DNA of 64,000 nt from an uncultured Granulosicoccaceae bacterium (GTDB taxonomy: Bacteria > Pseudomonadota > Gammaproteobacteria > Granulosicoccales > Granulosicoccaceae). Position 1 is the stretch's first letter. Every line of letters begins with the position of its first letter. This document shows positions 29,749 to 43,071 of this stretch, in pieces. The notes beneath the pieces were generated by a model, which saw only the letters and a list, made by a program, of their open reading frames with translations, made no database searches and had not been told where the DNA came from. The DNA is taken from NCBI GenBank assembly GCA_937931165.1, contig CALHCI010000053.1, positions 1 to 64,000 on the forward strand. Reading direction: 5' to 3'. A program made the translations under genes and the position numbers.

Positions 29749-30560
29749 ACTGGTGGGGTAAATTACTCGGCGGTGGCTTCGGTTTTTTAATAGGCGGGCC
29801 TATCGGTGCGCTGATCGGTGCTGTGCTTGGGCACAACTTCGATAATGGGCTCAAGCGCATTCAACACGACAGTGAGGAAGACCTTTCTCCGGGTGCCCAG
29901 GAGCGCGTTCAGGCAACCTTTTTTACCGCGACATTTGCCACGATGGGGCATCTGGCAAAGGCAGATGGACACGTCACACCCGATGAAATCAAAATGGCTG
30001 AAAATGTCATGGCGCAAATGCAGTTATCACCCGAGCAACGCAAGGTTGCCATTGATCTGTTTAATCAGGGAAAAAAAGACGACTATGATCTGCAGGCGGT
30101 GGTAGAGCAGTTTCGAATTGAGTGTCGTCGCAGAACCAATCTTATGCGCATGTTTATGGAAATTCAGCTGCATGCGGTGTATGCCGACGGGGCCAGACAT
30201 CCGGCTGAGGAAAAGGTGCTGGAGGAGATTTGCGGTTATCTGAAGTTTCCGAAATTCATGCTGCGGCAGATGGAAATCCTGGTTAAAGCCGGCCTTGATG
30301 CCAACAGAAATCAACAGCGATCTGCCAGTGGACGAACTCCTGCCATGCCGCTGGACAGTGCCTATGAATTGCTCGGGGTGGAGAAAGGTGACGACAAAGC
30401 GGTAGTGAAGCGGGCTTATCGCAAGCTGATGAGCCAGCACCATCCGGATAAGCTGGTGGCCAAAGGTCTGCCACCGGAAATGATCAAAGTGGCGACTGAG
30501 AAAACCCAACACATTAAAGCGGCCTACGAACTTATAAAAGAAGCCAGGGGCTGGAAGTAG
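29745..30560 (+). CDS. djlA: Co-chaperone DjlA
   Basis: DjlA is a membrane-anchored J-domain protein that activates DnaK and affects the Rcs envelope stress pathway in E. coli. The 271-residue product has an N-terminal transmembrane helix with Gly repeats (WGKLLGGGFGFLIGGPIGALIGAVLGHN), a central TerB-like domain (residues about 50-180, with GHLAKADGHVTPDEI), and a C-terminal J domain starting AYELLGVEKGDD with the essential HPD in SQHHPDK. The start overlaps the truD stop by four bases. Confidence 0.94.
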   Translation: MNWWGKLLGGGFGFLIGGPIGALIGAVLGHNFDNGLKRIQHDSEEDLSPGAQERVQATFFTATFATMGHLAKADGHVTPDEIKMAENVMAQMQLSPEQRKVAIDLFNQGKKDDYDLQAVVEQFRIECRRRTNLMRMFMEIQLHAVYADGARHPAEEKVLEEICGYLKFPKFMLRQMEILVKAGLDANRNQQRSASGRTPAMPLDSAYELLGVEKGDDKAVVKRAYRKLMSQHHPDKLVAKGLPPEMIKVATEKTQHIKAAYELIKEARGWK

Positions 30561-30609
30561 TCAGAACTAATGGTTTGGATAGCTGGTAAAAATCGCGTTA
30601 TTTTTAACG

Positions 30610-31131
30610 TTATTGTTCAAGCAGTCTCGGCATCAGCATCACCAGATTGCACGGTCGTGTGCGGTTATCGAGCTGTTCGCTGATGAGTTTTGTCCACGCG
30701 GTTTTACACGCACCAGGTGAGCCGGGCAGTACAAAAATATAAGTCGCGTTTGCAACGCCCGCCAGTGCACGTGATTGCAGCGTGGACGTTTTGATATCTT
30801 CGTAGGAAAGTACCCTGAACATTTCTCCGAACCCCTCGATTTCTTTGTCGAGCAATGGCGAGACTGCTTCAGGCGTGCCATCCCGTCCCGTAACGCCAGT
30901 ACCACCGGTACTCAGCACCACATCAATTTCGGCGTTGGCGATCCAGTCACTGATGCGAGCTCTAATCTGGTATTTGTCGTCTTTGACAATCGCTTTGTCG
31001 GCACATCGGTGGCCGGTTTCTTCAAGCAGAGATACCAGCAGGTGGCCGGATTTGTCATCCGCTTCAGTGCGACTGTCAGAGACGGTCAGGACCGCGATAT
31101 TGAGCGCTTTAAACTCGGGCTTATCAGACAT
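30610..31131 (-). CDS. moaB: Molybdenum cofactor biosynthesis protein B (MoaB/Mog-type)
   Basis: This 173-residue protein has the MoaB/Mog fold: IAVLTVSDSRT at residues 13-23 and VVLSTGGTGVTGRDGTPEAV at 70-89. The family adenylylates molybdopterin before metal insertion by MoeA. It lies alone, convergent with djlA and divergent from rluB. With mobA and two moeA genes it makes four molybdenum cofactor genes scattered over 23 kb; moaA, moaC, moaD and moaE are not in the window. Confidence 0.9.
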   Translation of the reverse strand: MSDKPEFKALNIAVLTVSDSRTEADDKSGHLLVSLLEETGHRCADKAIVKDDKYQIRARISDWIANAEIDVVLSTGGTGVTGRDGTPEAVSPLLDKEIEGFGEMFRVLSYEDIKTSTLQSRALAGVANATYIFVLPGSPGACKTAWTKLISEQLDNRTRPCNLVMLMPRLLEQ

Positions 31132-31243
31132 AAATTCAGCTTATCGTGTTGGCAGTAGAGGACTTGCTTCGCATCCTATCATTGCACTGCCATCATTCAA
31201 CAGCGTGCTGTGCGATAATCCGCTTCCGAACATGTGAGCATTT

Positions 31244-32071
31244 ATGGCAGAAAGAATTCAAAAGTTGCTGGCGCGTGCCGGACTCGGGTCCAGGCGCAAG
31301 CTCGAAGCAGATATTGCTGCCGGTGAGGTCGTGCTCAACGGACGCACTGCAGAGCTTGGCATGAAGGCGGAGTCCGGTGACCGGCTTCGCTACGCTCACA
31401 AGCGCTATCGTGTGGTGACGGCGACTCGTCAGGATTTCAGACTGATTGCCTACCACAAGCCGGTAGGTCGGGTGACCACCCGATCTGACGAGCAGAACCG
31501 GCCTACCGTATTTGAACATCTGCCGCGATTAAAAGGCTCGCGCTGGGTGGCTATTGGCAGGCTTGATATTAATACCAGTGGTCTGTTGTTATTCACTGAC
31601 AACGGTGATCTGGCACACCGGCTGATGCATCCTTCTTCGGAAATAGAACGCGAATATGCCTGCCGTATACGTGGTGTTGTCGATGAAGATCATATTCGCG
31701 AACTGCACAAGGGTGTTGAACTTGACGACGGGCCGGCGCGGTTTCAGCGCTGCTGGTTTGATGGTGGTACTGACAACAATCAATGGTACCGGGTTATTTT
31801 AAGTGAAGGCCGTAATCGTGAAGTGAGGCGGCTTTGGATGGCATTAGGCTATCAGGTCAGCCGACTCACCAGAGTGCGCTACGGCCCGGTAAAATTGCCT
31901 CCGTATTTGCGTGTTGGCAAGTTTGCCGATGTTGATGAACGGCTGGTTGCGGAGCTTAAATCACTGGCGGGATTGCAGGGCAGTAGTGATGCTCAGCTAA
32001 GGCTGATCAATGATGCCGGCACTCGTGGACGCCCGCGCAGCGGTCGCAGACGAGCCCCGGGTCGGCGGTGA
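31244..32071 (+). CDS. rluB: 23S rRNA pseudouridine(2605) synthase
   Basis: RluB modifies U2605 of 23S rRNA. The 275-residue protein has the S4 RNA-binding domain at the start (IQKLLARAGLGSRRKLEADIAAGEVVLNG), the catalytic Asp region RWVAIGRLDINTSGLLL, and GRNREVRRLW, as usual for RluB/RsuA family enzymes. The C-terminus is an Arg-rich tail (GRPRSGRRRAPGRR). The end of the gene and the next 50 bases form a degenerate 12-base repeat array. Confidence 0.92.
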   Translation: MAERIQKLLARAGLGSRRKLEADIAAGEVVLNGRTAELGMKAESGDRLRYAHKRYRVVTATRQDFRLIAYHKPVGRVTTRSDEQNRPTVFEHLPRLKGSRWVAIGRLDINTSGLLLFTDNGDLAHRLMHPSSEIEREYACRIRGVVDEDHIRELHKGVELDDGPARFQRCWFDGGTDNNQWYRVILSEGRNREVRRLWMALGYQVSRLTRVRYGPVKLPPYLRVGKFADVDERLVAELKSLAGLQGSSDAQLRLINDAGTRGRPRSGRRRAPGRR

Positions 32072-32120
32072 TCGCGGCGGTGATCTCGGCGGTGGATCGC
32101 AGTGGTGATCGGGGCGGTTA
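32062..32120 (+). repeat. Degenerate 12-13-base tandem repeat at the rluB stop
   Basis: Five units of the form TCGCGGCGGTGA can be read across 32062-32120, the first ending in the rluB stop. The units differ at two to four positions. Such arrays at rluB 3' ends can add or remove tail residues by slippage. Confidence 0.65.
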
Positions 32121-32273
32121 AGCGCGGTAACAGTAGCGGTGCTCAGTGCACCACAAATATTTATTGATGCCGCTTCACAGTGACAACGGTTATGGTATGA
32201 TCGCCCAGTTGTGCGACCGCGTGCCCGTTTTGGCTCGTCCTAACCAGTAATTGTCTCCCATAAATGTCTCAGT

Positions 32274-32600
32274 ATGACTAAAGAACACGTCTATCGGGTA
32301 CGCTTTATCAACCAGGACAAAATATACGAGCTGTACGCAGCAGATATATTTCAGGGAGAAATGTACGGGTTTGTTGTATTGGAAGGACTGATGTTCAACG
32401 AGCACACAACCGTTGTGGTTGACCCTTCAGAAGAAAAGCTGAAAAGTGAGTTCGAAGGCGTCACACAGACTATAATACCGATGCATGCAATCATCCGTAT
32501 TGATGAAGTAGAAAAACGCGGTACCCCGAAAATTGCAGACGCGGGAAGTAATGTTTCTACATTCCCTCCCATCTACACTCCTAAAGGATCAGGGGCGTAA
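32274..32600 (+). CDS. DUF1820 family protein
   Basis: This 108-residue protein has the DUF1820 core: HVYRVRFINQDKIYELYAADIFQG at the start, FVVLEGLMFNEHTTVVVDPSEEKLKSEF in the middle and HAIIRIDEVEKRGTPKI near residue 85. The family is common in gammaproteobacteria and often sits beside tRNA or RNA-modification genes; its function is not established. Its stop is only eight bases before the tRNA-Ser gene, so both probably share one transcript and one terminator. Confidence 0.85.
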   Translation: MTKEHVYRVRFINQDKIYELYAADIFQGEMYGFVVLEGLMFNEHTTVVVDPSEEKLKSEFEGVTQTIIPMHAIIRIDEVEKRGTPKIADAGSNVSTFPPIYTPKGSGA

Positions 32601-32608
32601 CCGGTTCC

Positions 32609-32699
32609 GGAGAGGTGTCCGAGTGGCTGAAGGAGCACGCCTGGAAAGTGTGTAAACGGTAACCCCGTTTCGAGGGTTCGAAGCCCTCTCTCTCCGCCA
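32609..32699 (+). tRNA. tRNA-Ser (anticodon GGA)
   Basis: The 91-base sequence folds as a class II tRNA with long variable arm. Acceptor GGAGAGG (32609-32615) pairs with TCTCTCC (32689-32695), with G-U at the last pair. The anticodon stem CACGC (32636-32640) pairs with GTGTG around loop CTGGAAA, giving anticodon GGA (32643-32645). The T arm is GAGGG-TTCGAAG-CCCTC. G73 and CCA (32697-32699) are encoded. Confidence 0.97.
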
Positions 32700-32706
32700 A
32701 ATAGGA

Positions 32707-32730
32707 AAGCCCGCAGCAGCGGGCTTTTTT
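32707..32730 (+). terminator. Rho-independent terminator after tRNA-Ser
   Basis: AAGCCCGC at 32707-32714 pairs with GCGGGCTT at 32719-32726 around AGCA, followed by T residues. It ends the DUF1820-tRNA-Ser transcript. Confidence 0.9.
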
Positions 32731-32770
32731 ATTCCGGACGGTTGGCCGCATTGCCACTGTGATTGGCAGG

Positions 32771-33571
32771 TTATGCGGGAGTGGCCGGAGCAACATCAAG
32801 CCGCACAATACTATCGTCGCCGTCGAACACACAAGGGTACAAGGTTCTGACCGCCGGATCGTGACCTGGAATAATGTGCTGCTGCGAGTCGGCAAGTGCG
32901 CTTAGTCGGTTGAAACCATTGAGCATGTCTTCCAGATCTACCACGATTGGAAATGGCTTGCTGTGCAGGAAGTTCTCGTAAAAATGGCTGGCGTCAGAGG
33001 CCAGCACCAGCCAGCCGCGTTGTGTTTTAACCCGTACGCACTGCAGCCCGCGGCTGTGGCCGCCAATCAGGTGGACCTCAAGTCCGGGTGCTACTTCTGA
33101 CGAACCATTGTGAAATACCAGTTTGCCGCTGTACAACTGTTTGACCATATTACATACATGTTCGACGGTAAAAGGTTTCTGCAATACGCCATGGCACATG
33201 CAGGGACCGGTCGCGTATTCCATTTCAAGCTGTTGCAGATGAAACGTGGCATGCATAAAGTCTTCAAGACCACCGGCATGGTCGTAGTGCATGTGGGTCA
33301 CGATCACAGTATCAATCGATTGCGGCGGAACGCCAAAACGGGTGATCAGCTCTGCCGGTGTTTCGTATAACTGTCGGCCTCTGGCGAGACTTTCTTTTTG
33401 ATCAAAGCCGGTGTCAACCAGAATGGTTTTGTCGCCGTTCTTCAGTACCCAGACAAAATAATCAAGCGGCCACGCTGCGTTGTGGTTGTCGTCGAATAAA
33501 AATGACTCGTTGCGATCACGGTTGTTGTGATCGGCGTACTTTAATGCATACACTTCCCATAGATCTGACAT
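32771..33571 (-). CDS. MBL-fold hydrolase, lactonase-like
   Basis: The 266-residue protein is a metallo-beta-lactamase-fold hydrolase. Metal ligands are present: THMHYDHAGG (HxHxDH, residues 92-101), GGHSRG, the bridging Asp in LASDASHF, and the last His in IIPGHDP. This is the pattern of the AttM/AiiA lactonase and 4-pyridoxolactonase branch, so opening of a lactone ring is likely, on an acyl-homoserine lactone or a sugar-type lactone. It is the last gene of an operon with two dehydrogenases (2-base gap), which favours a sugar or organic acid lactone over a signal molecule. Confidence 0.85.
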   Translation of the reverse strand: MSDLWEVYALKYADHNNRDRNESFLFDDNHNAAWPLDYFVWVLKNGDKTILVDTGFDQKESLARGRQLYETPAELITRFGVPPQSIDTVIVTHMHYDHAGGLEDFMHATFHLQQLEMEYATGPCMCHGVLQKPFTVEHVCNMVKQLYSGKLVFHNGSSEVAPGLEVHLIGGHSRGLQCVRVKTQRGWLVLASDASHFYENFLHSKPFPIVVDLEDMLNGFNRLSALADSQQHIIPGHDPAVRTLYPCVFDGDDSIVRLDVAPATPA

Positions 33572-33573
33572 CG

Positions 33574-34662
33574 CTATTCCTTCGTTACTGCAAGTGTGCG
33601 CTGCTTATCGGAGGCATCGTAGACCAGAGACTCGAGTTCAATATTATTCAGGTACTCTGATGCGAGGTTATGCAACGGCGTGCCGTGCAGAAGATGCCCG
33701 GCAACGTGCGACTGCAAACGAAAGACACAGTCACCGCCAAAATCATTGTCGTTAAAATGATAAGGAATCTGTTGTTGCTTTGTGCTGCCGAATTCACGAT
33801 GTGATATGTCACCGTTGCCGTTCAGGGTAAGGGTGCCGGTAGTGCCTTCGATAAGCATTTCGCCCAGTGTCAGGCGGGTATTGTCAGCGCCATGGTCAAG
33901 ATGGCGGTTGCCATCAAACACAACGCGTAAGCCGGAGTCGTACATTAGCGTAAAGAAGCCGGCGTCTTCACCGGCAATGGCCGGGTTTAAGCGTCTGAGG
34001 TCTGCAGAAACGGCATCCGGTTCACCAAAAAGATAGCGAAATACATCTATAAAATGAATGCCGGTTTCATGAATCAGAAAGCGTGGCATAGTTTGAAAGT
34101 AGGGCTGCCGTTGCAGGTACGCCTCCGGCCCTTGTCCATCACCGGGTCTCAACCTGAAAGTGGCCTGCTGTACATCACCAATCAAGTGTTCATCAAGCAG
34201 CATTTTTAATTGCTGATACCACGGTTGAAAGCGAAAATTTTCATGCACAACAATGGTTCTGTTTGTTGATTGCGCGCGCTCTACAATGCCTTTTGCTTCT
34301 TTAATCGTGTTGCAAAAAGGCTTCTGGCAAACAACGATTGCATTGGTGTGCTTCAGAGCTTTTTCAATGAGATCAGGATGTGTTGCCGGTGGTGTTGCGA
34401 TATCGACTATGTCAGTGTTCGGGTGCGCATCTGCCAGATCTTTAATGATGTTCGCCTGTGGAAATTGCTGACGAAGCTGCTGATGTTTTGATTCGTCTAT
34501 TTCAACAATTTCCTGCAGTACAACATTGTGAATGCGTTGCCATGCTCGCAGTTGAAACTGCGCAAAGTAACCAGCTCCGACTACCAGTACGTGTAGCAAC
34601 GCTTGTTGTGCATTTTGTTGCGAGTCAGAGTTGTCCTTATTCATGAGGCCAGATTCAAACAC
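33574..34662 (-). CDS. Gfo/Idh/MocA-family oxidoreductase
   Basis: This 362-residue protein starts with a Rossmann motif VLVVGAGYFAQFQLRAWQ (residues 24-41) and has VCQKPFCNTIKEAKGI with the EKP-like segment changed to QKP. FHETGIHFIDVFRYLFGEPD is the family substrate-domain motif with the catalytic His. It should oxidise or reduce a sugar or polyol with NAD(P). The start is ATG at 34662. It is 21 bases after the dehydrogenase gene and two bases before the lactonase-like gene, so all three are co-transcribed. Confidence 0.87.
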   Translation of the reverse strand: MFESGLMNKDNSDSQQNAQQALLHVLVVGAGYFAQFQLRAWQRIHNVVLQEIVEIDESKHQQLRQQFPQANIIKDLADAHPNTDIVDIATPPATHPDLIEKALKHTNAIVVCQKPFCNTIKEAKGIVERAQSTNRTIVVHENFRFQPWYQQLKMLLDEHLIGDVQQATFRLRPGDGQGPEAYLQRQPYFQTMPRFLIHETGIHFIDVFRYLFGEPDAVSADLRRLNPAIAGEDAGFFTLMYDSGLRVVFDGNRHLDHGADNTRLTLGEMLIEGTTGTLTLNGNGDISHREFGSTKQQQIPYHFNDNDFGGDCVFRLQSHVAGHLLHGTPLHNLASEYLNNIELESLVYDASDKQRTLAVTKE

Positions 34663-34683
34663 TGCTTTAAGCGGTCTGGTTCA

Positions 34684-35775
34684 TCAAGTCAGGCAATCGA
34701 CAACAGCGGTTGCGATGGTCTCGGTATTGGCGCTGCCACCCACATCTCTGCCTTTGCCGGCAGCCGTGCCTGCCGCCTGCAACGCGGCTGCTTTGAGCGC
34801 GAGTCCGGCACGCTCTGCATCAATACAATCGAACTTTTCACCGAGGTATTCAAGCATCATAGCGCCGGATAAAATCATCGCCATCGGGTTAGCGAGACCC
34901 TGGCCGGTAATATCCGGGGCGCTGCCATGGCACGGTTGAAACACCGCATTGTTTTCACCGATGTCTGCTGAAGGTGCCAGTCCAAGACTGCCCATCAGTC
35001 CTGCGCCGAGATCAGACAGAATATCGCCAAACATATTTTCGGTGACCATGACATCGAGATCCCATGGGCTCTGCACCATTTTCATCGCAACCGCATCGAC
35101 GTACATGGCGGATGTTTCAATGTCTGTGAATTGCGCTGCGCGTTCGTTGAATATCTCGCGGAAAAACCAGAACGACCGGAACACGTTGGCTTTATCGACA
35201 CACATAAGTTTACCGGGTCGATTCAACTTGCGTGCACGGGATTGCGCCAGCTTAAAACTGAAGTCAAACAATTGCTCTGACACCGCACGTGTGATGCGCA
35301 TTGTTTCAATAGCATGATCATTATCAATCACCTGGCCTTCGTCTTTGTGGGCAAAAAGACCTTCAATCGATTCACGCACCAGAACAAAGTCCAGTTCGGC
35401 TGCGCGTTCGTCTGCCAGTACTCTGGGTCCGCCCTTGAAGGTATAAACAGGCCGCACACCGGCAAACAATTTTAGTGCGATGCGCAAATCAATTTGCGGG
35501 ACCAGTTCGGTGCCGTCAGGCTTGCGGATGTGCGGGAGTCCCATGGCCGAAAGCAAAATGGCATCTGATTTGCCGGCTGCGGCGACTGATTCGGCTGGCA
35601 GCGCCTCACCTGTGTTCTGGTAGTGCAGGGCACCGGCAGGTAAATGCGTGTAATTTAACGAAAAGCCGTCATAGAGTCCTGCGACTTTCTCTAATACAGA
35701 CAGGGTCGGTGCCATGATTTCCGGGCCGATTCCGTCGCCTTCGAAAACAGCAATTTCAAATGATCTGGCTTTCAA
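34684..35775 (-). CDS. Isocitrate/isopropylmalate-family beta-decarboxylating dehydrogenase
   Basis: The 363-residue protein is a beta-hydroxyacid oxidative decarboxylase. It has IAVFEGDGIGPEI (residues 8-20), LFAGVRPV, FVLVRESIEGLFA, VDKANVFRSFWFF with the catalytic Lys, TENMFGDILSDLGAGL and HGSAPDITGQGLANP. It resembles isopropylmalate, tartrate and D-malate dehydrogenases, and is not close enough to LeuB or Icd to name one. It is not next to leuCD. Being the first gene of the operon with an oxidoreductase and a lactonase suggests catabolism of a hydroxy-acid or sugar acid. Confidence 0.85.
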   Translation of the reverse strand: MKARSFEIAVFEGDGIGPEIMAPTLSVLEKVAGLYDGFSLNYTHLPAGALHYQNTGEALPAESVAAAGKSDAILLSAMGLPHIRKPDGTELVPQIDLRIALKLFAGVRPVYTFKGGPRVLADERAAELDFVLVRESIEGLFAHKDEGQVIDNDHAIETMRITRAVSEQLFDFSFKLAQSRARKLNRPGKLMCVDKANVFRSFWFFREIFNERAAQFTDIETSAMYVDAVAMKMVQSPWDLDVMVTENMFGDILSDLGAGLMGSLGLAPSADIGENNAVFQPCHGSAPDITGQGLANPMAMILSGAMMLEYLGEKFDCIDAERAGLALKAAALQAAGTAAGKGRDVGGSANTETIATAVVDCLT

Positions 35776-36152
35776 ATCTGTTTACTCGTTGTCGCGGGGG
35801 ATGTGCAGTGAAGTATGAGCGCGATCAGCCGGATCGGCAATAATTGCCGGTTTGAAATTGCGACAACAGGTAAATCTTTGAAAAATATAAAAAAATCAGG
35901 TTGTTCGAAATTTGCTGGATTTCAATGAAACTATCAACCTCGTAATACTAACTGTAAATTGAGGAACTGAATAAATATCTGACGCTTCACGCGCCTTCGT
36001 GAGGATTTACTTTAAGTTCGGCTTGTAACGCAACTGGTTCTTGTTGTTAAGTTCATGATACAAATTGCTCGACCCGTGAGAAGGTCGGAAATGTTCCGGT
36101 CTCGGCGAAAAATAAAAATAATAAAAAAGTACCACCCCATTGGCGGTTAACC
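35776..36152. other. Intergenic region between two divergent genes
   Basis: This 377-base region holds the control sequences of the leftward catabolic operon and the rightward EAL gene. It is AT-rich in 35880-35960 and around 36110-36130. I see no convincing promoter pair, gene or repeat. A palindrome GGTTAACC lies at 36145-36152, right before the EAL gene start. Confidence 0.5.
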
Positions 36153-38171
36153 ATGATTGATGTCCCGATTTCTTCTGATTCTCTGAAGCCTGAGCTTTCC
36201 AGCGTGGCAAATGCCTCGCTGCACGCTGTTGTTTTTGGCTCTGGCGACAGCGCCTTTGACCGTCGCGTCATAGAGCCTGCACTCGATAAAATTAATGCGC
36301 TGGGTTTGGTTGGCTCAACGTGCTTTCAGGTTGCGTCAGAAGATGCTGCCGCCAATAACGTCCGAGCTAATCTGTTTGTATTTCTCATTGACCGCCACCA
36401 GCACCAGTCTGCAGAAGCCGCACGAGCGGCCTTTGTTGCTATCCGACGTGCGATGGCTGGAGATGCCTTGATTATCCCGGTGGTGCTCGACAGTGACGTT
36501 GATTTCGAACAGTCAAAGCTTGCTTTTCTGGCACCACTTACCGTAGAGCCACTCGCCACCGGTGTGCGTTTGTCTGAAAGCGCTGTAAGCGACTTTGTCA
36601 GTAGGGCCCTGGAGTTTTCCTCACGGCTTAAGAAAACAGCGGTTGTGCAGCCTGCGGTGACTCCGTCAATGGCAGACAGAATTTCCGAAATCTCGCAAAT
36701 TGCAGAGTCGGTTGATCCACTGCCATGTCATATGAGCAGTTACGATGATTTTGTAGAGCAACTTATCGCACGCCTGCAGGTGATGCGTATGAATAATCGT
36801 CGACGCAACCTGAATATCTTTTCTGAAGCGTTAAAGCAGGTGCTTGGAGCGGAAATGGTGTACTGCTATTTTCGTGGCAAGAATGGACAGCTGCATATGT
36901 ATGAGGCTGATTCAAACCGTCCGCTGCATAACTGTTCTGCCAGCTTAGTGCACTGTGTACTTGAAGAAGCGCTTGAAGGATACGCGGATATAGCACCTCG
37001 TCGTTCACTGCGCTTACAGAACTTTCTGCCGCAACTGTCTCCCGCCAGCGGCAGCCCGATGGAATGTATGGTTGTAGTCAATGATCGCCTGCCGAATTGC
37101 GGGGTGTTTATTGCGGTAAAGGATGGTTTCAAGCGCTTTCCGGCAACAGAAGTGCTGAGTACAGTCATTAACTCACTACATGATGCTTTGGCATGGGCGA
37201 ACTTTGAGTCATTCGAAAAACTTAAAGCCCGCGTATACGACGGATTGAAAGAGACTTATCGGTTTGTCAGCCGTGATATGTATGAAGACCGGCGCAGAAT
37301 ATTCCGCAGTCAACTCAGTAATATTAACGTGCACTTTGAGCCGATGTTCCGTTTTGATCCGGGTAGTCGTGATGTGGATATCTTTGCCTATGAAGCACTT
37401 GCCCGTGAACATATTGACTCAAATGCCGCACCGGTAGAAATCTTTAATGCTGCCAGCTTGTGGGGTATGGGTTTTCAGCTGGAGCTTGATTCGACATTGC
37501 TTGAAACCACAATTGGTGCTTACGGATCACAGGTGAGCGGTGGCGGCGGCAGCAACGATATCAAGCCTTTGTCATTGAATGTGTATCCGGCAACGTTAAA
37601 GTCGCCGGCTTATCGCGAGTTGTTGTACGAAGTGATCGGACGCAGCGCGCCGCTCAGCGGGCATCATCTTATTATGGAAGTGTCAGAAAAAACGGTAGTG
37701 TCTCCGGAGTTACAGATTGAAGCACGTCAGCAACTTGAAGAATATCGCGATGTGGTTCGGCAACTCGGACAACTCACCGGAGTGAGATTCGCGATCGATG
37801 ACTTTGGTGTCGGCAATGCTTCACTGTCCCGACTCGACAGTTTAAAGCCACACTATGTAAAAATAGATCGGGATATTCTTTCCTTTGACACCCGCATGGC
37901 AGACACGTTGATTCGTTACCTCGTCCAAAGCCAGCGTGAACTGGGTACCGCAGTGATACTTGAAGGAGTCGATATACACAGCAAGCTGAGTCTCAACGAG
38001 CTGGTCAGTGACATAGGAGTCGATTTGATTCAGGGCCACAGTCTTAGTAAAGCGGTGAGCTCGTTTGATGATGCCTGGGAAGCGCAGGTTTGTGCCAAAA
38101 TCAAGAGTAATCTTGGCTGGGCAGCGCCGGCGGCTATGGTTCCTGAAGTCGCAGGTTCAGTACTGCATTAA
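36153..38171 (+). CDS. EAL-domain c-di-GMP phosphodiesterase with N-terminal alpha/beta and GAF-like domains
   Basis: The 672-residue protein has three parts. Residues 20-150 form an alpha/beta domain with buried strands (HAVVFGSG, LFVFLIDRH, LIIPVVLDSD) of a family I do not recognise. Residues 180-345 look GAF-like. Residues 395-650 form an EAL domain with FAYEALARE, LSLNVYP, IMEVSE, AIDDFGVGN, VKIDRDI, ILEGV and LIQGHSLSKAVS, keeping the metal-binding Asn, Glu, Asp-Asp, Lys and Gln residues. It should therefore hydrolyse c-di-GMP. It has no GGDEF domain and no membrane helix. It lies alone. Confidence 0.85.
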   Translation: MIDVPISSDSLKPELSSVANASLHAVVFGSGDSAFDRRVIEPALDKINALGLVGSTCFQVASEDAAANNVRANLFVFLIDRHQHQSAEAARAAFVAIRRAMAGDALIIPVVLDSDVDFEQSKLAFLAPLTVEPLATGVRLSESAVSDFVSRALEFSSRLKKTAVVQPAVTPSMADRISEISQIAESVDPLPCHMSSYDDFVEQLIARLQVMRMNNRRRNLNIFSEALKQVLGAEMVYCYFRGKNGQLHMYEADSNRPLHNCSASLVHCVLEEALEGYADIAPRRSLRLQNFLPQLSPASGSPMECMVVVNDRLPNCGVFIAVKDGFKRFPATEVLSTVINSLHDALAWANFESFEKLKARVYDGLKETYRFVSRDMYEDRRRIFRSQLSNINVHFEPMFRFDPGSRDVDIFAYEALAREHIDSNAAPVEIFNAASLWGMGFQLELDSTLLETTIGAYGSQVSGGGGSNDIKPLSLNVYPATLKSPAYRELLYEVIGRSAPLSGHHLIMEVSEKTVVSPELQIEARQQLEEYRDVVRQLGQLTGVRFAIDDFGVGNASLSRLDSLKPHYVKIDRDILSFDTRMADTLIRYLVQSQRELGTAVILEGVDIHSKLSLNELVSDIGVDLIQGHSLSKAVSSFDDAWEAQVCAKIKSNLGWAAPAAMVPEVAGSVLH

Positions 38172-38216
38172 CCTGAGATTCTGCAGCGCAGACTCCTGAC
38201 AAGGGTAGTTAAAGTT

Positions 38217-38693
38217 GTGACGCTGGATGAATACCTGCCAGAGATACTTGCATGGTGTAAGCACAGGGAGCAGCTGATTCTGGAAACCGGTTTGCCGTTA
38301 ACAGAGAGCCAGCTGGTACTCGCGGGAGACTCTGGTGTTAAGGATACTGATCGTGTTCGTCTGCTCAGTGTTGAGCGAGTGTTGTTTCCTGACGATAAGC
38401 ACCTGGTAGAGTTGGCACGCGCCTGCGGTATGCCGCTCGATTCAACTGCTGGCAGAGCGATCGGTTATGGCGTTGAGGTGGTTCATAGTGGTACTCACTC
38501 AGAGCGTTTGCTGAGACATGAGTTTCGGCATGTGTACCAGTATGAGTCCAATGGTGGTGTAGAAGTTTTTCTGGAAATGTATTTGCGCTCTGTTATTGAG
38601 CACGGCTATCTGCAAAGTCCGTGGGAGCAGGATGCCAGAAGATATGAACATGTTGCTGCTAACGACCCGGGTTTTTTACCACATCAGCCGTGA
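38217..38693 (+). CDS. Hypothetical protein with HExxH metallopeptidase-like motif
   Basis: The 158-residue protein begins at a GTG (38217). I do not recognise a family by name. It contains HEFRH (His101-Glu102-x-x-His105) in the context RLLRHEFRHVYQYESNGG, then acidic residues (SPWEQDARRYE, residues 134-144) that could supply a third ligand, as in DUF4157-like or other zinc peptidase domains. There is no signal peptide or membrane segment. It follows the EAL gene by 45 bases on the same strand. It could be a protease or just a metal-binding protein. Confidence 0.6.
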   Translation: MTLDEYLPEILAWCKHREQLILETGLPLTESQLVLAGDSGVKDTDRVRLLSVERVLFPDDKHLVELARACGMPLDSTAGRAIGYGVEVVHSGTHSERLLRHEFRHVYQYESNGGVEVFLEMYLRSVIEHGYLQSPWEQDARRYEHVAANDPGFLPHQP

Positions 38694-38861
38694 ACAGTGC
38701 CGTTATTGGTTAAGTAAGGAGGTTTTCCGGTACTTCGGCAGACTTACCTCGGGGTTCGATACCGGGCAGGCTACATTCGAAACGCATGACGCGATACTGT
38801 AATATTGGAGAGTCGCATCAAGACGGCAGGAATAGCGCGAAACTGATCTGGAGTGTGTTGC

Positions 38862-39287
38862 ATGACTTATGAAGAAAACAATATCTTCGCAAAAATTTTA
38901 CGTGGTGAATTGCCCTCTGAACAAGTTTATGAAGATGATCAGACGCTGGTGATTATGGACATCATGCCGCGTGCTGACGGTCATATGCTGGTGATACCGA
39001 AGTCACCAGCGCGCAACATGCTTGACGCGACCAACGATCAACTGGCTGCCTGTCTGGCGACAGTTCAGGTGGTAAGCAAAGCAGCACAGCAGGCATTCAA
39101 TGCCCAGGGTATAACGCTGCAACAGTTTAACGAGGCAGCCGGCGGGCAGGAGGTTTTCCACCTGCATTTTCATGTGCTGCCACGCAAAGACGGTGAAAAG
39201 CTGCGTCCTCCAGGCAAGATGGGTGATTCTGCAGTGATCAGTGCCAATGCCGAAAAAATCCGTGCCGCGTTGTCAAAAAACCGGTAA
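38862..39287 (+). CDS. HIT-family nucleotide hydrolase
   Basis: This 141-residue protein starts with NNIFAKILRGELPSEQVYEDD and has the HIT motif in VFHLHFHVLP (His-x-His-x-His), so it is an HinT/protein kinase C inhibitor-type HIT protein that removes AMP or similar groups from phosphoramidates. The ATG at 38862 is chosen because GGAG (38850-38853) lies eight bases upstream; a GTG at 38853 would overlap that site. It is monocistronic and placed between the HExxH protein and a response regulator. Confidence 0.9.
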   Translation: MTYEENNIFAKILRGELPSEQVYEDDQTLVIMDIMPRADGHMLVIPKSPARNMLDATNDQLAACLATVQVVSKAAQQAFNAQGITLQQFNEAAGGQEVFHLHFHVLPRKDGEKLRPPGKMGDSAVISANAEKIRAALSKNR

Positions 39288-39445
39288 CAGCGGTTTACAA
39301 AGCAGCGATGCCGGACCGCGGTCAGTTGGCCCGGGATGACACACCAACTTCCAATATTGCGGCTTGTGCTGCAAATGTCCATACATTGGCATAATGGTGG
39401 CGTATACAAAGGAATATCACCGTTGAACGATAAGTCGTTTCATCT

Positions 39446-40150
39446 ATGCAACCACTAGAAAATCTCAGTGTTTTATTAGTTGAAGACCATCAGGATCTTG
39501 CCGAGACTGTTGTCGATTTTCTTGAGTCAATGGGGGCGGTTGTCGATTTTGCTGCAGACGGAATGACTGGCCTGCATCTGGCGCGGCAACACCGCTTTGA
39601 CATCATCGTGCTCGACCTCATGCTACCCGGTATGGATGGCTTCACGTTGTGTAAAGAGATTCGCGAGACCGATAAAAACAGTACTCCGGTTATCATGATG
39701 ACTGCGCGGGATGAGCTTGGAGACAAGTTGCAGGGCTTTGAGTGTGGCGCTGATGACTATGTGGTCAAACCTTTTGACCTGCCGGAACTTGTCGCACGCA
39801 TTAAGTCACTGAGTAAACGCCACCAGGGCAGTGTGACCAGTGAAACGCTCAGCGTGGCTGATCTGATTCTCGATACCGGCACCAGAGAAGTCAGACGTAA
39901 CGGTGAGTTATTGCAGTTAACGCCTGCCGGTTTTCAGATTCTGCGAATACTGTTGAAGAAAATGCCGAACGTGGTGACCAGAGAAGAAATTGAGTCAGAA
40001 CTTTGGGGTGATGATCCGCCGGCAAGCGATACCTTGAGAAGTCAGATCTATAAGCTCCGAAAAACCCTTGATAAGCCCTATGCCGTGTCACTGTTGCATA
40101 CGGTTGCCGGGTCTGGATACCGAATCACCGAAACTGACAGTGAAGCTTGA
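39446..40150 (+). CDS. OmpR-family DNA-binding response regulator
   Basis: The 234-residue protein has a receiver domain with VEDHQDLAETV, the phosphoacceptor Asp in IIVLDLMLPGMDGF and VVKPFDLPEL, and a winged-helix DNA-binding domain (RREEIESELWGDDPPASDTLRSQIYKLRKTLDKP). Its partner is the histidine kinase on the opposite strand, whose last 63 bases overlap its own end. Regulated genes are unknown. No strong ribosome site is seen at the ATG. Confidence 0.92.
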   Translation: MQPLENLSVLLVEDHQDLAETVVDFLESMGAVVDFAADGMTGLHLARQHRFDIIVLDLMLPGMDGFTLCKEIRETDKNSTPVIMMTARDELGDKLQGFECGADDYVVKPFDLPELVARIKSLSKRHQGSVTSETLSVADLILDTGTREVRRNGELLQLTPAGFQILRILLKKMPNVVTREEIESELWGDDPPASDTLRSQIYKLRKTLDKPYAVSLLHTVAGSGYRITETDSEA

Positions 40151-41616: not shown

Positions 41617-43071
41617 ATGAAATTAATTCGAAACTTGGGATTGTCGCTGCTGGTTGCTGTGGGTGTTTCCGCCTGTGACAGTGATGGCGTGACCCTGAAC
41701 ACAACGGATGCCGCCGGTACATCAGGGGCTGTGGCCGGCGAAGCCACTGGCAATATCGTACAGACCGCAGTCGATGCCGGTAGCTTTAATACGCTGGCGG
41801 CGGCATTGGGTGCTACCGGGCTGGATGCAGTACTGGCGGACGAGAGCCGTCAGTTCACTGTTTTTGCACCGACTGATGACGCCTTCGAGGCACTGGGTCA
41901 GGACACTATCAATGCACTGTTGGCAGACCCGGAAGCGCTGACCGACATTCTTCTCTATCACGTGCTGGCCGATGCGAATGTAGACAGCGCCACCGCGATT
42001 TCGTTGGCAGGCACAGCAGTGCAGGCAGCCAACGAAGACGATCTGCAGATATCCCTTTCAGACGGAAACCTGTTCATTAATACGTCACAGGTGATCTCTG
42101 CTGATGTTGTCGCGACCAACGGTACCATCCACGTGATCGACACTGTGCTTTTACCACCGGCAGGTGACGACAGTGCAAACCAGGGTGATGGTGCAGGTGA
42201 GCCCGTCGAGCCACAGTTGTCTAACATTGTTGATACCGCGCTGGCAGCCGGTTCTTTTAATACACTCGCGGCAGCACTTGAGGCAACCGGGTTGGTCGGC
42301 GTGCTTGCCGATGAGAAAGCCACCTTTACTGTATTTGCGCCGACCGATGATGCGTTCGCGGCCCTTGGTCAGGACACTATAGATGCACTGCTGGCCGATC
42401 CGGATACCTTGCGCGACATCCTGCTATACCACGTAGTATCAGGACAAGCAGTGAATGCTGAAACCGCAATCAGCCTGGCCGGTTCGTCGGTCACCATGGC
42501 GAATGGCGACGATACGGAACTGTCACTTGCTGCAGGTCAGTTGTTTGTTAATGAATCCACTGTGGTTGCGACTGATGTGGCGGCGAGTAACGGCATTATT
42601 CACGTGCTGGACGCGGTACTACTGCCACCTGCCGATGAGCCTGCAGCACCGGAGCTCGACAGCATTTACAACACAGCCATTGCAGCCGGTAACTTCCACA
42701 CTCTGGTAGCTGCGTTGCAGGCGACCGGTCTTGATGGACCACTGGCTGGCGGACATGAAATCTACACCGTGTTTGCCCCGACTGATGATGCGTTTGCAGC
42801 ACTTGGCCAGGACACTATCGATGCTTTACTTGCTGATCCGGATACCCTGAAGAATATCCTGCTGTATCACGTTGTTGCTGATGCCGCTGTGGATGCCAGC
42901 GCCGCGCTTAGTCTGGCCGGAAGCAGTGTCACGATGGCTAATGGTGATGCTGTTCAGGTGAGTGTTAAAGGTGGTGAGTTGTTTATTAATGATGCCATGG
43001 TAACGGTGACTGACATCATGGCTACTAACGGCATTATTCACGTCATAGATACCGTTCTTATCCCCCACTAA
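41617..43071 (+). CDS. Lipoprotein with three fasciclin (FAS1) domains
   Basis: This 484-residue protein has a lipobox VSAC (Cys20), then three FAS1 domains at about residues 45-180, 200-340 and 345-483. Each shows FTVFAPTDDAFEALGQD-type and ILLYHVVADA-type motifs and ends in GIIHVIDTVLLP. FAS1 domains act in cell adhesion and surface binding. The copies are close at DNA level (for example the repeated GGTCAGGACACTAT segment), so they arose by internal duplication. It is likely an outer-membrane or surface lipoprotein. It is divergent from the histidine kinase and ends before a terminator. Confidence 0.92.
   Translation: MKLIRNLGLSLLVAVGVSACDSDGVTLNTTDAAGTSGAVAGEATGNIVQTAVDAGSFNTLAAALGATGLDAVLADESRQFTVFAPTDDAFEALGQDTINALLADPEALTDILLYHVLADANVDSATAISLAGTAVQAANEDDLQISLSDGNLFINTSQVISADVVATNGTIHVIDTVLLPPAGDDSANQGDGAGEPVEPQLSNIVDTALAAGSFNTLAAALEATGLVGVLADEKATFTVFAPTDDAFAALGQDTIDALLADPDTLRDILLYHVVSGQAVNAETAISLAGSSVTMANGDDTELSLAAGQLFVNESTVVATDVAASNGIIHVLDAVLLPPADEPAAPELDSIYNTAIAAGNFHTLVAALQATGLDGPLAGGHEIYTVFAPTDDAFAALGQDTIDALLADPDTLKNILLYHVVADAAVDASAALSLAGSSVTMANGDAVQVSVKGGELFINDAMVTVTDIMATNGIIHVIDTVLIPH

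Follow-up and report, generated by a model that had tools for sequence, protein, structure and literature searches.

A dehydrogenase-oxidoreductase-lactonase trio in Granulosicoccaceae probably forms the center of a larger operon that breaks down a small acid sugar

What might three tightly packed genes do that are predicted to encode two dehydrogenases and a lactonase and that travel with neither a transporter nor a regulator? Such a unit lies in a 64,000-nucleotide stretch of DNA from an uncultured Granulosicoccaceae bacterium (assembly GCA_937931165.1, contig CALHCI010000053.1, positions 1 to 64,000), which was analyzed whole and is referred to here as the window. The three genes encode an Iso_dh-family dehydrogenase of the isocitrate/isopropylmalate type (Iso_dh), a Gfo/Idh/MocA oxidoreductase (Gfo), and an MBL-fold hydrolase (MBL), and a first-pass annotation of the sequence had described them as an operon of unknown pathway. 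Comparison with related genomes indicates that this trio is most likely the genus-specific core of a larger conserved operon for the catabolism of a small acid sugar.

The larger operon of marine relatives

We scanned named genomes with an alignment of Gfo and kept the best 80 of at least 528 relatives (the 80 named loci), which are mostly from marine Alphaproteobacteria, Granulosicoccaceae, and Halomonas. By comparison with reference proteins, these best 80 loci encode Iso_dh in 68 cases, MBL in 53, a protein of the ABM fold in 47, a GntR regulator in 53, OtnK in 34, OtnC in 33, TctA in 19, and DctP in 17. In 51 of the 80, Iso_dh is the gene immediately upstream of Gfo, and the ABM-fold protein is encoded in 33 of the 34 loci that carry OtnK. 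At 28 of the 80 loci, Iso_dh, MBL, the ABM-fold protein, and GntR occur together with at least one of OtnK and OtnC and with a transporter of the TRAP or Tct type; at 9 loci Gfo stands alone among the operon genes. The full operon is present in cultured strains, for example Shimia haliotis (L096) and Roseibium aggregatum IAM 12614 (L068). The earlier remark that no transporter or regulator is part of the unit thus holds only in the window's genus, since relatives cluster a TRAP or Tct transporter and GntR with these genes.

A search for more recurrent genes of the operon returned only another TRAP type, and comparison of the TRAP and Tct solute-binding proteins with solved structures gave broad family matches and no substrate. 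In Ahrensia kielensis (L047:585-3300), the OtnK match is split into two pieces approximately 1.4 kb apart, which resembles an insertion.

Within the genus, the trio is a stable unit. All 12 other same-genus loci examined have the three genes contiguous and in unchanged order, as expected of genes that are conserved together, and an EAL-domain gene adjoins the trio in each of them; a 108-amino-acid gene does so in 9 of the 12, and 2 of the remaining 3 loci stop at a contig edge. The 57 genomes searched for the MBL protein include 13 of this genus in addition to that of the window, and 12 of these 13 have it at ≥400 bits; Gfo is present in 13 of 14 same-genus genomes, the window's own included. 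Because order and neighbor are the same at all 12 loci, we regard the trio as an old, vertically kept unit rather than a recent island, and the constant position of the trio at these loci rules out a genomic island at the adjacent tRNA-Ser gene.

A different arrangement is seen in three genomes of another genus of the same family, where Iso_dh-Gfo is followed by a regulator-like gene and the MBL gene is divergent. The gene after Gfo is GntR-type in two of these genomes; in the third it is clipped by the contig end and is similar in appearance. One same-family genome (G026) carries TctCBA-MBL-ABM-OtnK-OtnC divergent from Iso_dh-Gfo-GntR, with OtnK at 508.8 bits (cut-off, 350) and OtnC at 280.1 bits (cut-off, 250).

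A tie to the kinase OtnK and the decarboxylase OtnC

OtnK, a 3-oxo-tetronate kinase, and OtnC, a 4-phosphate decarboxylase, together convert 3-oxotetronate to dihydroxyacetone phosphate. We examined the association of these genes with the trio in an unselected sample of 398 Pseudomonadota genomes, counting Gfo at E values of ≤1e-70 and MBL at E values of ≤1e-50. Gfo was found in 7 genomes, MBL in 32, and OtnK in 81. MBL is present in 6 of the 7 Gfo genomes and in 26 of the remaining 391 (Fisher test, p = 1.1e-6, with no correction for relatedness). All 7 Gfo genomes have OtnK, compared with 81 of the full set of 398 (p = 1.2e-5, likewise uncorrected). Where a locus lacks OtnK and OtnC, OtnK is encoded above its cut-off elsewhere in the genome in 18 of 20 cases.

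In the window's genus, OtnK is above cut-off in 12 of 14 genomes and OtnC in 10 of 14. The window's own genome (G000) has consecutive genes for OtnK, OtnC, and OtnI on a contig other than that of the trio; OtnK (535.8 bits) and OtnC (318.1 bits) exceed their cut-offs, and OtnI reaches 324.4 bits against a cut-off of 325. The first description needs amending here, since the fate of the product is not left open: the operon is tied to OtnK and OtnC.

OtnI has no match inside any of the 80 named loci, and we considered whether the ABM-fold protein strictly replaces it. The comparison did not establish this: of 23 genomes with the operon, 6 encode OtnI above the cut-off, 15 have a match below it, and 2 have none; counting the weak match in G458 (1.2e-6), 3 of the 23 are without a strong match. 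The ABM-fold protein matches an isomerase model (LsrG-like) weakly, at 50.1 bits against a cut-off of 135. No orthologue of it was found in the window's genus, where only weak matches of 26 to 37% identity occur, in 6 of 14 genomes.

MBL relatives that are 38 to 54% identical (L150 to L167) occur in many Pseudomonadota with no Gfo or Iso_dh nearby, at up to three matches per genome; the neighbors of MBL in genomes without Gfo (18 such among 20 stretches, 10 of them examined gene by gene) were varied and uninformative. A different operon (L135:3450-12982, on G006:C188) encodes TctA, an Iso_dh, an Asp/Glu racemase-like protein, OtnK, OtnC, and an aconitase-family protein. The genes flanking its TctA are placed like TctC and TctB, and TctA alone matched a reference; its Iso_dh is 35% identical to the reference Iso_dh and keeps the Tyr at the catalytic position. 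This operon perhaps represents another pathway that ends in OtnK and OtnC.

Probable lactone hydrolysis and a candidate route

Loci without MBL often encode an SMP-30/gluconolactonase-like protein (SGL; PF08450) next to Gfo. The 80 named loci carry MBL in 53 cases, SGL in 14, neither in 13, and both in none; among the 68 loci with Iso_dh, 51 carry MBL and 9 carry SGL (naive p = 5e-7). In G281, which is without MBL, the genes form a single run of ABM-Iso_dh-OtnK-OtnC-Tct-Gfo-SGL-GntR. Because two unrelated lactonase folds occupy one position in the operon, we propose lactone hydrolysis for this step.

The MBL protein could instead be a quorum-quenching acyl-homoserine lactone (AHL) lactonase that merely lies beside two dehydrogenases. 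AHL-lactonase models are its best NCBIfam matches, and the structure closest to its predicted model (pLDDT, 93.6) is the AHL lactonase 8x78 (Z, 32.9; root mean square deviation [rmsd], 2.2; 258 aligned residues). It shares with AiiA, AidB, and 8x78 the fold and the dinuclear metal motif, the latter also present in other MBL lactonases: His93, His95, Asp97, and His98 (HxHxDH), His172, Asp193, and His237 are conserved in 36 of 36 aligned rows. However, its best score is 71.7 bits, against AiiA, where the cut-off is 375, and it falls below every curated lactonase cut-off (AiiA, AidB, AttM, AhlS, and YtnP). In all 36 rows a His (His196) aligns with Tyr194 of AiiA, which we take to be catalytic; 8x78 has Tyr there. 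Moreover, the gene is conserved with the dehydrogenases and is swapped for SGL in relatives. We consider the AHL-lactonase explanation very improbable; the sequence comparisons predict a sugar-acid lactonase that is unlikely to act in quorum quenching, and the initial warning that homology could mislabel it as a quorum-quenching enzyme was well founded.

From the conservation of the genes, the exchange of lactonase types, the tie to OtnK and OtnC, and the catalytic residues described below, we infer a route with its reactions, their order, and its substrate. Gfo would oxidize a cyclic sugar or a uronate-like acid to a lactone, and MBL (SMP-30/gluconolactonase in relatives) would open it. The hydroxy acid so released, in the likeliest case a five-carbon (C5) diacid that loses CO2, would be oxidized by Iso_dh to a 2- or 3-oxotetronate. 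In the full operon, the ABM-fold protein may run the 2-oxo/3-oxo isomerization, which is OtnI's classical role. OtnK would then phosphorylate the four-carbon (C4) keto acid, and OtnC would decarboxylate the phosphate to dihydroxyacetone phosphate. We regard the frame of this route, a lactone step that feeds OtnK and OtnC, as probable, and its end at OtnK and OtnC is the best-supported part; the C5 decarboxylating version taken alone is put forward tentatively. The first-pass annotation had sketched a similar outline, in which a lactone is made and opened and the acid is oxidized; this much fits the comparative evidence, and we hold its decarboxylation and its sugar starting point only provisionally.

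The place of Gfo in this order admits a second arrangement, in which an imported lactone is opened at the outset and Gfo, as an oxidoisomerase like D-apionate oxidoisomerase (ApnO), then oxidizes and rearranges the hydroxy acid. Gfo has the Lys/His catalytic pair of its family: Lys94 and His183, and also Glu179, are conserved in all 36 aligned rows. Its AlphaFold model (pLDDT, 94.6) is closest among solved structures to 5uhw, with a Z score of 38.5 (about 4 over the next), an rmsd of 2.5, and 332 aligned residues; the sequence match has an E value of 1.5e-32. 5uhw, which we take to belong to the ApnO study, is a complex with NAD+ and Mg. A lactonase, a kinase, and a decarboxylase are likewise part of apiose clusters (PMC11747546). 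Identity to 5uhw is only 26%, though, and no NCBIfam model for an enzyme of the D-apionate oxidoisomerase type matched Gfo. The same Gfo subfamily also occurs with SGL alongside an IlvD/EDD dehydratase at four loci (L058, L064, L083, and L084), with an FAA hydrolase at L083 and L084 and an aldose epimerase (mutarotase) at L084. These clusters look like a second type of pathway that shares the Gfo subfamily and resembles oxidative sugar pathways, which suggests that Gfo acts before the lactonase, and we judge the ApnO-like arrangement quite unlikely.

Entry at OtnK and OtnC requires a four-carbon keto acid, and the chemistry of Iso_dh decides what must precede it. A decarboxylating Iso_dh needs a C5 diacid, as in the proposed route; a nondecarboxylating one needs a tetronate. 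Iso_dh shares the Arg/Lys/Asp catalytic set of LeuB, isocitrate dehydrogenase (IDH), and tartrate dehydrogenase: Arg98, Arg108, Arg134, Lys195, Asp227, Asp251, and Asp255 are conserved in 34 of 34 rows. It differs from these enzymes in scoring below every NCBIfam equivalog cut-off, that for homoisocitrate dehydrogenase included (at best 280.9 against 540; leuB, 241.9 against 353.2; TTC, 249.1 against 470.4) and in carrying Phe141 where LeuB and IDH have a Tyr that is presumably catalytic. Phe is found in 33 of the 34 rows, the exception being the distant L135 protein. The residue four before Arg98 also differs from these enzymes (Gln in 27 rows, His in 6, and Asn in 1); this region presumably touches the part of the substrate that varies, so a polar group is likely there.

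In a C4 version of the pathway, the substrate would be a tetrose or tetronolactone, the lactonase would yield a tetronate, and Iso_dh would be a nondecarboxylating tetronate 2-dehydrogenase, followed by isomerase, OtnK, and OtnC as in the L-threonate/D-erythronate route. The lost Tyr fits this version, as does L084, which encodes a D-2-hydroxyacid dehydrogenase with OtnK, SGL, and Gfo and in which no Iso_dh was found. It also agrees with OtnK and OtnC scoring above their equivalog cut-offs and with the ABM-fold, weakly LsrG-like protein of the OtnK loci. By contrast, the three Arg residues, which we take to bind the leaving carboxylate in characterized relatives, are kept in every row, and the related Gfo-SGL clusters resemble routes for sugars of at least five carbons. 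We consider the C4 version unlikely. The C5 diacid fits the kept Arg residues and the carboxylate transporters of the operon. In its fullest form, the C5 proposal would be a new route: a C5 acid sugar would be converted to a lactone, opened by MBL or SGL, and decarboxylated by a Tyr-less Iso_dh to a tetronate in enediol or keto form, which an ABM isomerase unrelated to OtnI would feed to OtnK and OtnC. That this holds in every detail is possible but somewhat unlikely.

Several observations weigh against the proposed lactone route. The 80 loci were chosen by Gfo similarity and are mutually related, so p-values calculated from them serve as no more than a rough guide. MBL also occurs beyond the pathway, as 26 of the 32 MBL genomes in the unselected sample are without such a Gfo, and 8 of the 68 Iso_dh loci carry neither MBL nor SGL. 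Two of the 20 genomes with OtnK-less loci lack OtnK, and one genome (G012) has the trio and no OtnK match. Gfo may act after the lactonase, since 5uhw contains Mg, which would suit an enzyme that binds acids. Finally, the replacement of the catalytic Tyr by Phe disfavors an ordinary decarboxylating cycle in Iso_dh.

The locus, known systems, and significance

In the window, the trio consists of three intact minus-strand open reading frames in the order Iso_dh, Gfo, and MBL, at the positions first annotated (Table 1). Their Pfam scores are 278.8 bits (PF00180), 69.8 bits (GFO_IDH_MocA, PF01408), and 70.7 bits (Lactamase_B, PF00753). Of the two short gaps originally given, that of 2 bases before the MBL gene stands, and that of 21 bases applies only if Gfo begins at the GTG at 34662; an alternative ATG at 34644, which is nearer the beginnings of homologues, leaves 39 bases between Iso_dh and Gfo. 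An Rfam scan of positions 30000 to 40000 gave no match, and a scan for promoters and terminators was close to the expectation from shuffled sequence (6 versus 3.9 and 8 versus 4.3). Elsewhere in the window, the repeats of a 484-amino-acid protein presumably resemble fasciclin domains, judging by their motif.

Table 1. Positions of the trio and of other features in the window
Feature	Position	Strand	Description
Iso_dh-family dehydrogenase	34684-35775	minus	363 aa, TTG start; first gene of the unit; PF00180
Gfo/Idh/MocA oxidoreductase	33574-34662	minus	362 aa, GTG start; PF01408 and C-terminal PF22725
MBL-fold hydrolase	32771-33571	minus	266 aa, ATG start; PF00753 (Lactamase_B)
tRNA-Ser	32609-32699		just past the last gene of the trio (MBL)
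Repeat protein	41617-43071		484 aa, three tandem repeats

Two known systems resemble the operon. It shares with the L-threonate/D-erythronate pathway OtnK and OtnC, which score above their cut-offs both in the operons of relatives and in the genome of the window, and the probable end product dihydroxyacetone phosphate; it differs at its front, where Gfo, MBL or SGL, Iso_dh, and the ABM-fold protein stand in place of LtnD/DenD, and in the absence of an OtnI match within the 80 loci. The oxidative D-apiose pathway uses a dehydrogenase, a lactonase, an oxidoisomerase, a kinase, and a decarboxylase (PMC11747546). The operon is similar in its design of dehydrogenase, lactonase, further oxidation, acid-sugar kinase, and decarboxylase, and in having a Gfo closest to 5uhw. 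However, the operon kinase matches OtnK (547.2 bits) and not OiaK (117.4 bits; cut-off, 700), Iso_dh takes the place of a second Gfo, and the lactonase is MBL or SGL. The reactions of the DUF1537 and apiose pathways are taken here from NCBIfam names, from PMC11747546 and PMC12540250, and from general knowledge. Searches of the open-access literature, which leave most subscription papers outside and are not proof of absence, found no description of an operon with Iso_dh, the ABM-fold protein, and MBL or SGL. What is new is apparently this combination, whereas the apiose-like design and the threonate/erythronate end are known.

If the proposal is correct, the operon would represent an additional acid-sugar route in marine carbon turnover, widespread in marine Alpha- and Gammaproteobacteria. 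It would also provide functions for a lactonase subfamily that homology would label as quorum quenching, for a Tyr-less Iso_dh subfamily, and for the ABM-fold protein. Because cultured strains carry the full operon, each step of the route could be tested.

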